DNA of 56,324 nt from NCBI GenBank assembly GCA_937919825.1, contig CALFPA010000034.1, forward strand, positions 1 through 56,324, written 5' to 3'. The notes below the pieces were generated by a model. That model ran no database searches. It was not told the DNA's origin and saw only the letters and a list, made by a program, of their open reading frames with translations. Below are positions 51,301 to 56,034 of this stretch, one piece after another. The position numbers were made by a program, and so were the translations under genes. The stretch is from an uncultured Spartobacteria bacterium (GTDB lineage: Bacteria; Verrucomicrobiota; Verrucomicrobiia; Chthoniobacterales; Terrimicrobiaceae). Each line of letters starts with the position of its first letter. The stretch's first letter is position 1.

Positions 51301-53151
51301 CTACTCGACCGTCACGCTCTTGGCGAGGTTTCGAGGCTTATCGACATCGCACCCCAATTCGACGCCGATGTGATAGGCGAGCAATTGGAGCGGCAGGACG
51401 GTGAGGATCGGCGTGAGGAATTCCTCACACGCCGGCACGAGCACGACATCGTCGCACAAGTCGGCGAGCACATCGTCGCCTTGGGTTCCCACTGCGATCA
51501 CCGGTCCATTGCGGGCCTTTACCTCCTCGATGTTGCTGAGGTTTTTTTCGAAAAGCCCGTCCTGTGGCGCGATGAAGACGCTCGGCGTTTCCTCGTTCAC
51601 CAACGCGATCACACCATGCTTCAACTCCGCACTCGGGTGCGCGCAGGTGGAGATGTAGCTGATCTCTTTCAGCTTCAGCGCACCCTCGAGCGCGACGGGG
51701 AAATTCGCCTGCCGGCCGAAGAAGAGAAAACTCTTCGAGGCGGCGTATTTTTTCGCGATGCGGCGGATGTCGGCATCCAACTCCAGCGTCGAGGCCACGA
51801 GGTCGGGGAGCTTTTCCAGCGCTTCGAGGATTTGGGCGCCATCCGCCTGGCGCATGTCCCGCATTCGCCCGAGCATCAGGCCGAGCATGGTGAGCACGAG
51901 CACCTGCGAGGTGAAGGATTTCGTGGCGGCGACTCCGACCTCCTGCCCAGCGCGCAGATCGATCCCACCATCGCTCTCACGGCTGATCGTGCTGAAGGGA
52001 TTGTTGCAAATGCCGAAGGTCGGCGCGCCCCGGCGACGGCATTCGCGCAGGGCCGCTAGCGTGTCGGCTGTCTCCCCGCTTTGGCTCAACGCAAAGACTG
52101 CAGTGCCCATTTCGAGCGGAGAATTTCGATAGCGGAATTCGCTGGCGATCTCGCACTCCACCGGCACGCGGGAGAGGAATTCGATGATGTATTCGCCGGC
52201 GAGCGCCGCGTTGAACGAGGTGCCGCAGCCGGTGAAGATCAAAGTCTCCCACTGCCTCAATTCCTCGGGTGAACGCTCGATGCCATGGAAACACGCCGTG
52301 GCCTGCTCGGCGATCAACCGCCCGCGCATCGCCTCGCGCAAAGTCTCGGGCTGCTCGTGGATTTCCTTTTGCATGAAATGCTCGAACTCGCCCTTCGTTC
52401 CAGCCTTCGCCGCTTTCTCCATCGAGCGAACGACCACCGGCGCGGCGGCACGGCCGTCAATGCCTGCCACATCGAATGTCTTGCCATCGAGCCAGGCGAT
52501 CTCGCCTTCGTTCAAATACACGAAATTCGACGCCCAGCCGGCGATGGCCGCCGGATCGCTGGCGAGAAATTGCCCGCCGTCGCCGAGCCCGAGGGCCAGC
52601 GGACTGCCCCGCCGCGCGGCGAGGAGAAAATCCCCAAAATCCTCGTGAAGAACGCCGATCGCGTAGCCCCCCCTCACCTGTTGCAATGCCTCCCGCGTGG
52701 CCTCGACCAAACCCTCGCGCGACTTGTCACCATGCCCGTCGAACGCCTCGCCGATCAACCGCGAGAGGACTTCAGTATCCGTCTGCGATGCGAAGACATG
52801 TCCCCGCGACTCGAGTTCGGCACGGAGGTCTTTGTGATTTTCAAGGACTCCGTTGTGCACCAGCGCCAGCTTGCCGGAGGCGTCGCGGTGCGGGTGCGCA
52901 TTTTCCAGCGTCACCCTGCCGTGCGTTGCCCAGCGGGTGTGGCTGATGCCGCTCGTTCCCGAGACCGGATGGCATTTGATTTCCTCGACGAGCGAGGAGA
53001 CATGGCCCACGGCTTTTCGAATTTCGATTTTTCCATGATTCAGCACGGCAACGCCGGCCGAATCGTAACCCCGGTATTCCAGACGACCGAGCCCCTCCAA
53101 AAGAAAGGGCACGGCGTTGGAATCCCCAACATACCCGACGATTCCACACAT
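51301..53151 (-). CDS. glmS: Glutamine-fructose-6-phosphate aminotransferase GlmS
   Basis: A 616-residue enzyme that makes glucosamine-6-phosphate for peptidoglycan and LPS. The N-terminal glutaminase domain starts with CGIVGYVGD (Cys2 nucleophile), followed by RWATHGRVTLENAHPH; the isomerase domain has two SIS modules with FTGCGTSFNAALAGEYIIEF, ALSQSGETADTLAALRECRR and HPSAELKHGVIALV. The C-terminus DVDKPRNLAKSVTVE is standard. It lies 2 bases after the DUF2334 gene, so it is almost surely co-transcribed with it. No glmS ribozyme is expected or seen. Confidence 0.97.
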   Translation of the reverse strand: MCGIVGYVGDSNAVPFLLEGLGRLEYRGYDSAGVAVLNHGKIEIRKAVGHVSSLVEEIKCHPVSGTSGISHTRWATHGRVTLENAHPHRDASGKLALVHNGVLENHKDLRAELESRGHVFASQTDTEVLSRLIGEAFDGHGDKSREGLVEATREALQQVRGGYAIGVLHEDFGDFLLAARRGSPLALGLGDGGQFLASDPAAIAGWASNFVYLNEGEIAWLDGKTFDVAGIDGRAAAPVVVRSMEKAAKAGTKGEFEHFMQKEIHEQPETLREAMRGRLIAEQATACFHGIERSPEELRQWETLIFTGCGTSFNAALAGEYIIEFLSRVPVECEIASEFRYRNSPLEMGTAVFALSQSGETADTLAALRECRRRGAPTFGICNNPFSTISRESDGGIDLRAGQEVGVAATKSFTSQVLVLTMLGLMLGRMRDMRQADGAQILEALEKLPDLVASTLELDADIRRIAKKYAASKSFLFFGRQANFPVALEGALKLKEISYISTCAHPSAELKHGVIALVNEETPSVFIAPQDGLFEKNLSNIEEVKARNGPVIAVGTQGDDVLADLCDDVVLVPACEEFLTPILTVLPLQLLAYHIGVELGCDVDKPRNLAKSVTVE

Positions 53152-53153
53152 GA

Positions 53154-54761
53154 TTAATTGAGCGTTCCATTGAGGGGGGTGAATTCGTAGCCCAGCGCCT
53201 TCAGGCCTTCGACCGTCTCGCGCAGGAATTGTGGGTCCAGATACCAGTGGAAATAAAATCCGGCCCAGCCATCGCGCACAACCTTGAGCGCTTTCGCACG
53301 CTGCAAGAGGTCGTTTGGCAGGCTCGGCGGCTGGATTTCATACCAACCCCACGGATCGATATAACCGATCGTCTCCGGGATGCGTTTCAGCCCGTAGGTG
53401 TCGCGGTAGATATAGGGCGAGTTCAACTCACTTGCTTGTGTGACGCTCTGCGAATCTTTGAAAAACAGAATGCTGCGGTCGCAGGCGAACGGGTAAATGC
53501 TGGCAAACGCCTTGTAGCCCTCGGGGGTCGAGAGGTAGTGGGGCGTGAGCCAACCCACCGGCGTGAACCCCGCATTGAGCAGGAGTTTTTTTCCACGGTT
53601 CACACGCTTCTTGGCATTCGCGATGGAGTTGCCCGGCAGCGGCCCGACCAGCGAGAGAAACCCGAACTCATCAGCCGTCACGCGGTAGAACTCGTAGTCG
53701 TCGCCGCTGTCTCCCGAGTAGGGATTCAACAACCCATCGATCTGATGCGTCGTTCCGTGCTGGAGAATCTGGCCGCCGAAGGTCGTCCAGCGCTTGACCT
53801 CTGCGGTGACAGGGCTGTTTTTGGTGACACGCACCGTTTCGGGAACGCCGTCGTTGTAGACCCCTGACCAGTCGCGGTATTCGGGAATCAGACTAATGGT
53901 GAACGGCACATCGAGCGCGTCGAGCGTGTTGCCGAGCGTCTTGAGCGTGGGCAAATCACTGACCGCCGCCACATCCTCGATGCGGAAATACGCGCGGCGC
54001 CTCTCCTCGTGGAAAATGCCCAGCATGTCGTGAAGCAAATCCTGAAAGGCCAGCGAGCGGTTTTCGAAGCTGGTCGAGATCATTGGCATGTCGGCGACGA
54101 ACCAGAAATTCCCGCTCTGCACCGCATACGGCCAGGACTTCCCTTCCTCGTCGAGGGCGGTGGCATGGATCTTCGCCTTCGCGGGATCGAGGATTTCCAG
54201 GCGGCTGAGGCCGAGATCGAATTGATCCTTCTGCAGTTTGGTTTCCTTATAGACGACGCTCGGATGCTTGGCTCCCGAATAGGACAGAAACCGAAAACCA
54301 TAACGCGCCTCGAAGGCCGGTTTGTAGGAGTAATCAGTAAGATTCCAAGCGTAGCGCCAGAGATTCACCCCGAGCCAAACGAACGGCCGCGTAGTGGCCT
54401 CCAAGTCTGTCTGGAAAATGCCGGGCAACGGCGTTTCGTTCCAGACCGACGCGAGGTAGAAAGTCGCATCGTGTCCTTGCAGATCTCCCGCGAGGTATTT
54501 TGAAAATGGCTTCCGGACCACCCGGGCCTCGAAATGCCCGAGCAGGTTCTGAAGTTTCGCCGAGTAGATTTCGCCGAGCCAGCCGTATTGGCCCTCATTG
54601 TCGTAAAGAACGAGAACCGATGGCCCGGCCGGAACCGTGTCGATGCCGCCCGCAGGGGGCGTGAGTAGCAGGACCGCCGCCAGAATCAGCGCGGTCAGGC
54701 AGCCGCATTGGATCCAGACGGTCGGGCTCCATCGTTTTCGTATTGGTGTTTGAATATTCAT
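53154..54761 (-). CDS. DUF2334 family polysaccharide deacetylase-like protein
   Basis: A 535-residue protein anchored by an N-terminal hydrophobic segment (TVWIQCGCLTALILAAVLLL, about 13-32). The C-terminal half (from about 240) resembles DUF2334: YFRIEDVAAVSDLPTLKTLG (Glu-Asp metal pair), FTISLIPEYRDWSGVYNDGV, and ILQHGTTHQ with H-G-x-x-H as in carbohydrate esterases. It probably acts on a cell-surface or extracellular polysaccharide. ATG 54761 is preferred; the frame extends to a TTG at 54782 within the leader hairpin loop. Translation may be controlled by that hairpin. It leads into glmS. Confidence 0.75.
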   Translation of the reverse strand: MNIQTPIRKRWSPTVWIQCGCLTALILAAVLLLTPPAGGIDTVPAGPSVLVLYDNEGQYGWLGEIYSAKLQNLLGHFEARVVRKPFSKYLAGDLQGHDATFYLASVWNETPLPGIFQTDLEATTRPFVWLGVNLWRYAWNLTDYSYKPAFEARYGFRFLSYSGAKHPSVVYKETKLQKDQFDLGLSRLEILDPAKAKIHATALDEEGKSWPYAVQSGNFWFVADMPMISTSFENRSLAFQDLLHDMLGIFHEERRRAYFRIEDVAAVSDLPTLKTLGNTLDALDVPFTISLIPEYRDWSGVYNDGVPETVRVTKNSPVTAEVKRWTTFGGQILQHGTTHQIDGLLNPYSGDSGDDYEFYRVTADEFGFLSLVGPLPGNSIANAKKRVNRGKKLLLNAGFTPVGWLTPHYLSTPEGYKAFASIYPFACDRSILFFKDSQSVTQASELNSPYIYRDTYGLKRIPETIGYIDPWGWYEIQPPSLPNDLLQRAKALKVVRDGWAGFYFHWYLDPQFLRETVEGLKALGYEFTPLNGTLN

Positions 54762-54765
54762 ATTT

Positions 54766-54799
54766 TTTCCCTCTGCCCCCAATGTGGAGCAGAGGGAAA
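54766..54799 (-). promoter_or_regulatory. Hairpin enclosing the ribosome site of the DUF2334-glmS unit
   Basis: An 11-bp perfect stem (TTTCCCTCTGC / GCAGAGGGAAA) with a 12-base loop. On the minus strand the 3' arm contains AGAGGG, which sits 7 bases before the ATG at 54761 and is the only good Shine-Dalgarno candidate. Folding would hide it from the ribosome. The A-rich continuation argues against a terminator. Confidence 0.55.
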
Positions 54800-54839
54800 C
54801 CGCGCGCGATGGGGAGAACGCCCGACACGATCACAGGAG

Positions 54840-55625
54840 CTAAAGCGGGAGCAGGGTCTGCACCGCGTTGTCGATCACACCCGAGGAGATCGCATAGCGC
54901 GTGAGACTGGCGGTCTCGTGAATATGAAGTTTGTCCATCAGGTTCTGCCGGTGCTTTTCCACCGTCTTGATGCTGATCCCCAAATCTCCGGCGATTTGCT
55001 TGTTGGCAAAACCCTCGGCGATGAGTTGGAGCACCTCGATCTCGCGACTCGTAAGCTTCACAGCGGGTCGCGAGCCGTTTCCGATCGGCGTCTCGGCACC
55101 GATCTTCCGCATGCGGTGGGAAATCGACGGACTGAAAAATTTGCGACCTCCAACCACCTCTTGAATCGCGTGCAAGACGAGGTTGGAGGGCGAATCCTTC
55201 AGCAGGTAGGCGTCGAAATCCCCGAGCATCGTTTGGTTGATGAAGCTGTCATTTCCAAAGGCGCTCAAAAGCACGACACGCACGCCGGGAGCGGATTGGC
55301 GGATTTGGCGGGCCGCTTCCAAGCCGTTCATCCGGGGCATGCCGATATCCATCAGCATCACATCAGGCCGCTCGGCAATGGCCATTTCCACGGCCTTCCG
55401 GCCATTGTCCGCCTCGCCCACCACATGGATCGAGTCCTCCGCATCGAGCATGTTTCGCAGGGCCTCGCGGATGAAGGTGTGGTCATCCACGATGCCGATT
55501 GAGACTTTTTTGGAGGCAGGGGATTTAGGAGAGGCAGCAGGTTTTATCCGCGCGGCTGAAGGCTTGCCGGGTTTCACCGGACGAAGTTTTTCAGTGGGCC
55601 GCTTGGAGAGTTTGATTTTGGTCAT
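54840..55625 (-). CDS. NarL/FixJ-type response regulator
   Basis: A 261-residue two-component regulator. Residues 1-40 form an unusual Lys/Pro/Ala-rich extension. The receiver domain follows: acidic pair at 47-48 (GIVDDHTF), phospho-acceptor Asp93 (LMDIGMPRMNG), Ser121 (LLSAFG) and Lys143 (LLKDS). The C-terminal LuxR-type helix-turn-helix (about 190-245) reads LTSREIEVLQLIAEGFANKQ and IAGDLGISIKTVEKHRQNLM. No sensor kinase is adjacent, so it is an orphan here. The target genes are unknown. Confidence 0.92.
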   Translation of the reverse strand: MTKIKLSKRPTEKLRPVKPGKPSAARIKPAASPKSPASKKVSIGIVDDHTFIREALRNMLDAEDSIHVVGEADNGRKAVEMAIAERPDVMLMDIGMPRMNGLEAARQIRQSAPGVRVVLLSAFGNDSFINQTMLGDFDAYLLKDSPSNLVLHAIQEVVGGRKFFSPSISHRMRKIGAETPIGNGSRPAVKLTSREIEVLQLIAEGFANKQIAGDLGISIKTVEKHRQNLMDKLHIHETASLTRYAISSGVIDNAVQTLLPL

Positions 55626-55720: not shown

Positions 55721-55927
55721 CTATTCGGCTGGGGAAATTTGCTTGGCCTCGTTGGCTTTTTGGATTCGTGCCGCCACGGCGTTTCGCTCGATCGCGGCTA
55801 GGGTGCGGCCCTCGCTGCGGACCTTGCTGTTGACGGTTTTTCCGGCGTTCGTTCGCGCTCGATCTTCACGAGAGATGTGGGTGCGCGGGCTGGGTTCGAT
55901 GCCGGAGTTTTTGTTTTTGGTTTTCAT
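55721..55927 (-). CDS. Small basic protein, unknown
   Basis: A 68-residue, Lys/Arg/Glu-rich hydrophilic protein (MKTKNKNSGIEPSPRTH to RIQKANEAKQISPAE), likely helical in its second half. ATG 55927 is chosen; the frame extends to 56002 without a better start. No family is recognised. It lies upstream of the response regulator on the same strand. Confidence 0.45.
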   Translation of the reverse strand: MKTKNKNSGIEPSPRTHISREDRARTNAGKTVNSKVRSEGRTLAAIERNAVAARIQKANEAKQISPAE

Positions 55928-56034
55928 GAGTTGGATGCTTGAGCGCCGATAGACTCCAAAATCCACCCACCCAGCGCCACGGGGTGAAGACCCCGAAGAC
56001 ACACCCCCAAGAATCGCTTTGAGTCGAAGCGACT

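Follow-up and report, generated by a model that had tools for sequence, protein, structure and literature searches.

A conserved upstream box and a lineage-specific start-site hairpin at the DUF2334-glmS locus of an uncultured Spartobacteria bacterium

Background

Hairpins in which the Shine-Dalgarno sequence of an mRNA is masked are known from RNA thermometers and translational riboswitches, and elsewhere the gene glmS is controlled by the glmS ribozyme and by GlmY/GlmZ. Among regulators that act on DNA, DosR is of the NarL/LuxR type. The DosR/DevR box of Mycobacterium is given as TTSGGGACTWWAGTCCCSAA in PMC2275270.

Here we describe a locus that touches on each of these systems, in a 56,324-nucleotide stretch of contig CALFPA010000034.1 (hereafter the window) from an uncultured Spartobacteria bacterium (GCA_937919825.1; genome G000). 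As in the Shine-Dalgarno-hiding hairpins, a stem lies over the putative ribosome site of a gene for a DUF2334 protein and ends near its start codon, and the next gene is glmS, the target of the ribozyme and of GlmY/GlmZ. An earlier note on this DNA had seen in the hairpin the layout of a translational switch. The named genus relatives of G000 are Spartobacteria/Terrimicrobiaceae metagenome-assembled genomes, mostly from freshwater to judge from our own reading of isolate names.

Results

The genes of the locus all lie on the minus strand. The DUF2334 gene (53154..54761; 535 aa; PF10096, E 4.7e-39) is followed by glmS (51301..53151; glutamine--fructose-6-phosphate transaminase; TIGR01135, E 3.7e-219), which starts 2 bases past the DUF2334 stop codon. 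This spacing, which the earlier note had reported, was confirmed and is close enough for the two genes to share a transcript; the switch that the note placed behind such shared control is not supported by the results below. Of the 16 loci that can be read downstream of DUF2334, the present one among them, 11 have glmS as the next gene. Upstream lie a LuxR/NarL-type response regulator gene (54840..55625; 261 aa; PF00072 and PF00196), our candidate regulator of the boxes described below, and a conserved 68-aa ORF (55721..55927) that is the first gene of the response-regulator unit. Several relatives also have this ORF ahead of the response regulator; a Pfam scan of its longer, 93-aa frame gave no match. 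No sequence relatives of the DUF2334 protein were found in the PDB at E 0.01; a homologue 41% identical to it is encoded far outside the phylum, in Fundidesulfovibrio agrisoli (L113, 2501-3985).

The hairpin before DUF2334 (54766..54799, minus strand) folds into a 14-pair stem with a 6-base loop. Its 5' arm, TTTCCCTCTGCTCC (54799-54786), and 3' arm, GGGGCAGAGGGAAA (54779-54766), enclose the loop ACATTG (54785-54780); 11 uninterrupted Watson-Crick pairs (54799-54789 with 54776-54766) are extended inward to 14, including one G-U, and the last four bases (54765-54762) of the range first noted, 54762-54799, fall outside the stem. The perfect 11-bp stem over AGAGGG that the earlier note had described is thus real, with a predicted folding energy of −26.1 kcal/mol (z −5.6; none of 200 shuffles was equally good). 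No other 11-pair stem with a loop of 3-12 bases exists in the whole window. Shuffled windows held 0.43 such stems on average (maximum 3 in 30 shuffles), so that it is not unusual for 56 kb of DNA to hold a stem of this kind; what is rare is its location at a start codon. Among the 51 mechanically called ATG starts of the window, ATG 54761 has the lowest folding z (−4.85), the runner-up being at −2.38.

In the folding model of the leader AGAGGG is fully paired, whereas the ATG, which begins 4 bases beyond the stem, is mostly unpaired (0.64). The unpaired probability of AGAGGG is 0.005 even at 80 C, which makes a thermometer unlikely, and we rejected this candidate because the modelled stem, still closed at 80 C, is not of marginal stability. 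Rfam searches of the region and of 12 loci from relatives and from the genome itself gave no relevant match, glmS ribozyme included, with E limits of 1 and 2, and on this ground a glmS ribozyme or another Rfam leader was rejected. The thermometer or ligand-sensing leader suggested by the earlier note finds no support in the model or in Rfam. An alternative start at TTG 54782, in frame here, was listed as a candidate in the window but not in the sister genome, and was rejected.

AGAGGG (54774-54769, minus strand) lies in the 3' arm and is separated from ATG 54761 by AAAAAAT, the 7-base spacing given in the earlier note; as a Shine-Dalgarno candidate, however, it is weak, with a match of only four bases (GAGG). 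A 5-base match occurs in 1 of the 18 usable DUF2334 leaders (L004), and of the window's 51 starts, 2 show a match of at least 5 bases and 24 one of at least 4, many of the latter not purine-rich. The 16S gene was looked for in G000 and not found, and we read the 16S 3' end, GGATCACCTCCTTT, which contains CCTCC, in the relative G014. Some Verrucomicrobia are classed as SD-scarce in one study (PMC10783764). The Shine-Dalgarno premise of the hairpin reading thus appears weak.

We searched 26 genomes of the family, the window's own included, for DUF2334 homologues and found them in 15, all within the genus (22 rows); 18 leaders were usable after L011, L016 and L018 (gene 5' end missing) and L023 (weak) were left out. 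With up to 3 mismatches allowed, the hairpin pattern is present in 2 of 16 genus genomes, G000 and its sister G017, in one copy each, which rules out a repeated or mobile hairpin. The sister genome is 90% identical, and its DNA 92.5% identical over the aligned window. Identity is 90-98% in the intergenic stretches, delimited with a rough gene set, and 96% in the hairpin leader, so that survival of the hairpin in G017 says little. G017 differs at two positions of 54762-54799, and its change within the stem, where a T of the 5' arm has become A, opens one pair without compensation.

The remaining 16 leaders fold differently ahead of the start codon. The earlier note had proposed that relatives be compared for stem conservation and covariation, and the two-genome distribution and the uncompensated sister change speak against both. 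It had also named loss of the stem with retention of AGAGGG as a refuting pattern; the other 16 leaders instead lack both as common features, most of them having neither. Hence the hairpin is genuine and an exception in the window, but specific to one lineage. In L010, L012 and L022 (G019, G016 and G021), another perfect hairpin of 8 bases, CTTCATAG with CTATGAAG, lies immediately ahead of and across the DUF2334 start; its 3' arm contains an ATG, and the folding z is −4.2 for L022 and −1.4 for the other two at the start used.

Directly upstream of the hairpin lies an operator- or promoter-like box of roughly 19 bases with the consensus GGG-N6-CCCCATSGCG (box 1; 54798..54827, minus strand; core GGGCGTTCTCCCCATCGCG at 54823-54805). 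Its core, GG-N6-CCYYAT, occurs in 16 of the 18 DUF2334 leaders, whereas 2000 dinucleotide-shuffled sets averaged 0.19 and never exceeded 2; the pattern was picked with the sequences in view and many of the rows are relatives of one another (L002/L003, L007/L008 and L010/L022 are near-duplicates), but the margin over the shuffles is still large. The core is absent from the DUF2334 paralogues L017 and L020, and L013 fits more loosely. From the CCCC to the start the distance is 48-57 bases in the 15 best leaders, counted from the upstream ATG in L014 and L015 and from the downstream of two in-frame ATGs in L010 and L012.

The box is present in more than one gene order. Eight of the 18 leaders come after the 3' end of the same regulator gene, whereas L005-L009 do not, and in several genomes the regulator does not adjoin DUF2334. 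The box is kept without the regulator gene upstream in L005-L009, L019 and L021, and without glmS downstream in L014, L015 and L021. It is not a general repeat, since the exact string GGGTGATCACCCCATGG is rare, with 3 carriers among the 147 genomes from the order. The core looks near-palindromic in many copies (GGGTGATCACCC; GGGGTCTTCACCCC) but imperfect in the DUF2334 copies. CCCCAT also resembles the −10 element of a sigma-32-type promoter; this candidate was rejected, as no CTTGAA was seen by eye at the right distance.

A second copy, box 2 (55968..55997, minus strand; GGGTCTTCACCCCGTGGCG at 55993-55975), precedes the unit of the 68-aa ORF and the response regulator. The core was found in all five readable genomes with this layout (G000, G017, G015, G019 and G021), compared with a mean of 0.08 and a maximum of 2 in 5000 shuffles (with R allowed at one site of the pattern), and outside the pairs G000/G017 and G019/G021 these leaders share only about half of their bases. 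G014 and G020 carry GGTCATCACCCA and GGTTATCACCCA, respectively, both 132 bases before the regulator's ATG. Because a copy of the box precedes the regulator's own unit, we propose that this unit may be autoregulated.

Additional copies were sought with three models (R1-R3) built from the DUF2334 leaders, whose E-values are rough. We read the neighbourhoods of the copies and ran 15 Pfam/NCBIfam scans of 13 proteins, one representative of most groups, with the remaining members assigned by similar N-termini. In genus relatives, box copies precede hsp20 (L120, with similar N-termini at L128, L130 and L137), a small ORF followed by the cyclopropane synthase gene cfa (L085, L088, L089, L090, L097 and L117; in L122 the box is on the other strand of this pair), a GGDEF gene with a divergent sugar epimerase gene (L080 and L115), a dienelactone-hydrolase-like gene (L126 and L138), a gene for a membrane protein weakly like DUF6789 (L131 and L134), ileS (L119) and ubiB (L132 and L133). 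The same motif thus stands before several transcription units, at a promoter-compatible distance. Among the 22 sites read in one neighbourhood set, four fall within genes and probably match by chance (L127, L129, L135 and L139).

In a stricter search (E 0.005), R3 matched 14 of the 16 genus genomes, the genus on which it was trained, versus 5 of 131 other genomes of the order. Two of these five matches lie in genes (G114 and G090), one has no clear placement (G007), and those in G110 and G145 (another family) lie just past a LuxR-type regulator gene. The G145 regulator is 47% identical to the window's response regulator, and the box lies between it and the next ORF, which encodes a 51-aa entericidin-like protein (Pfam score just under the cut-off). 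A literature search of partial coverage returned no match for the string TGATCACCCCAT and no such regulon in Verrucomicrobia.

The box might alternatively function as RNA, with GGG-N6-CCC forming a hairpin that acts in the leader. Three to four pairs are possible, and the box always stands before starts. In the gap between the regulator and DUF2334 genes of G015 (L004) it is part of a terminator-like hairpin, CCGGCC...GGCCGG followed by six T, which suggests a terminator or attenuator in that species. Across 33 box copies, however, the possible pairs do not covary (one double-sided change versus 2.1 in shuffles), the inner U-A pair is unpaired in 17 of 33 cells, and the RNA folds around the box vary between relatives. 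Given the lack of covariation and the differing folds, a DNA site is the simpler reading, and we regard an RNA element as quite improbable. In L014 and L015 (G014 and G020), the CATGGCGG of the box and a CCGCCATG at the start codon are complementary to each other, and the two are paired in the L014 fold.

Discussion

Because the relatives share the upstream box, and because the box also precedes several other genes, control of DUF2334-glmS is more likely to be transcriptional. We hold with moderate confidence that the unit is controlled mainly through the GGG-N6-CCCCATSGCG box as a DNA operator or promoter, the hairpin being a lineage-specific addition. A transcription factor would read the box as double-stranded DNA, and perhaps this is the adjacent LuxR-type response regulator, the best candidate because its own unit carries the same box. 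The hairpin would have arisen, or survived, just downstream of the box in the G000/G017 species pair only. If transcribed, it may damp translation, lowering or setting that of DUF2334 and, by coupling, that of glmS, with no conserved sensor; nothing shows a switch. Binding of the box as DNA, the protein involved, the transcription start site and any effect of the hairpin are inferred here. The extreme folding z of the hairpin and the other start hairpins of some relatives count against this reading and leave room for real translational control.

Such control could take the form of a true translational switch, operated by a small RNA, a protein or a ligand and recently gained in the species pair. 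The hairpin is very stable, sits exactly over the purine run before the most structured of the 51 starts, and keeps 11 pairs in the sister genome. Yet it is confined to two genomes whose leaders are too alike to reveal selection, one of its pairs is broken in the sister without compensation, and it neither opens with heat in the model nor matches Rfam; we therefore consider a switch unlikely. The hairpin might instead be static, damping translation, shielding the 5' end of the mRNA or having no effect, the last of which would follow if initiation here depends little on Shine-Dalgarno pairing. The scarcity of matches of 5 bases or more among the window's genes and in most orthologous leaders, the SD-scarce Verrucomicrobia mentioned above and the mostly unpaired ATG beyond the stem are all consistent with this. 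On the other hand, a stem of −26 kcal/mol so close to a start codon would be expected to block most ribosomes, whatever their mode of recognition, and a static hairpin, although possible, seems doubtful to us. Finally, the hairpin begins about 40 bases past the stop codon of the regulator gene and might be its transcription terminator, but on neither strand does the stem lead into a T run (the minus strand continues with an A run of the AAAAAAT type, the plus strand with AAACCG) and it was not among the terminator-like sites found, so that this explanation is highly improbable.

We tentatively propose that the box defines a small, apparently undescribed LuxR-type regulon of freshwater Spartobacteria. 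It would tie together the regulator's own unit, DUF2334-glmS and stress-type genes (hsp20, cfa, the entericidin-like gene and the GGDEF/epimerase pair), to which some lineages would add a start hairpin: the one described here in G000/G017 and different ones in G016/G019/G021 and in G014/G020. If so, amino-sugar synthesis through glmS would belong to a stress-type regulon in a freshwater lineage that is uncultivated. It is the shared box rather than the private hairpin that deserves focus, as its candidate regulator can be named and its targets can be tested. More generally, a striking ribosome-site hairpin can be lineage-specific, and hairpins seen in one genome therefore need relatives before they are labelled switches.

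Compared with thermometers and translational riboswitches, the hairpin has no conservation or covariation beyond one species pair, its stem is too stable in the model for opening by heat, and it has neither a ligand domain nor an Rfam match. The glmS systems known elsewhere differ in that glmS is here second in its unit and no ribozyme is matched, a GlmY/GlmZ-type small RNA having been checked by Rfam only. The closest parallel to the box is that of DosR, which is likewise an inverted repeat of G-rich and C-rich halves and has a regulator of the class that is the neighbour here, where its binding is a candidate interaction. The two boxes differ in spacing (N8 for DosR, N6 here) and in their flanks, of which only the right one, ATSGCG, is strongly conserved in the box described here.
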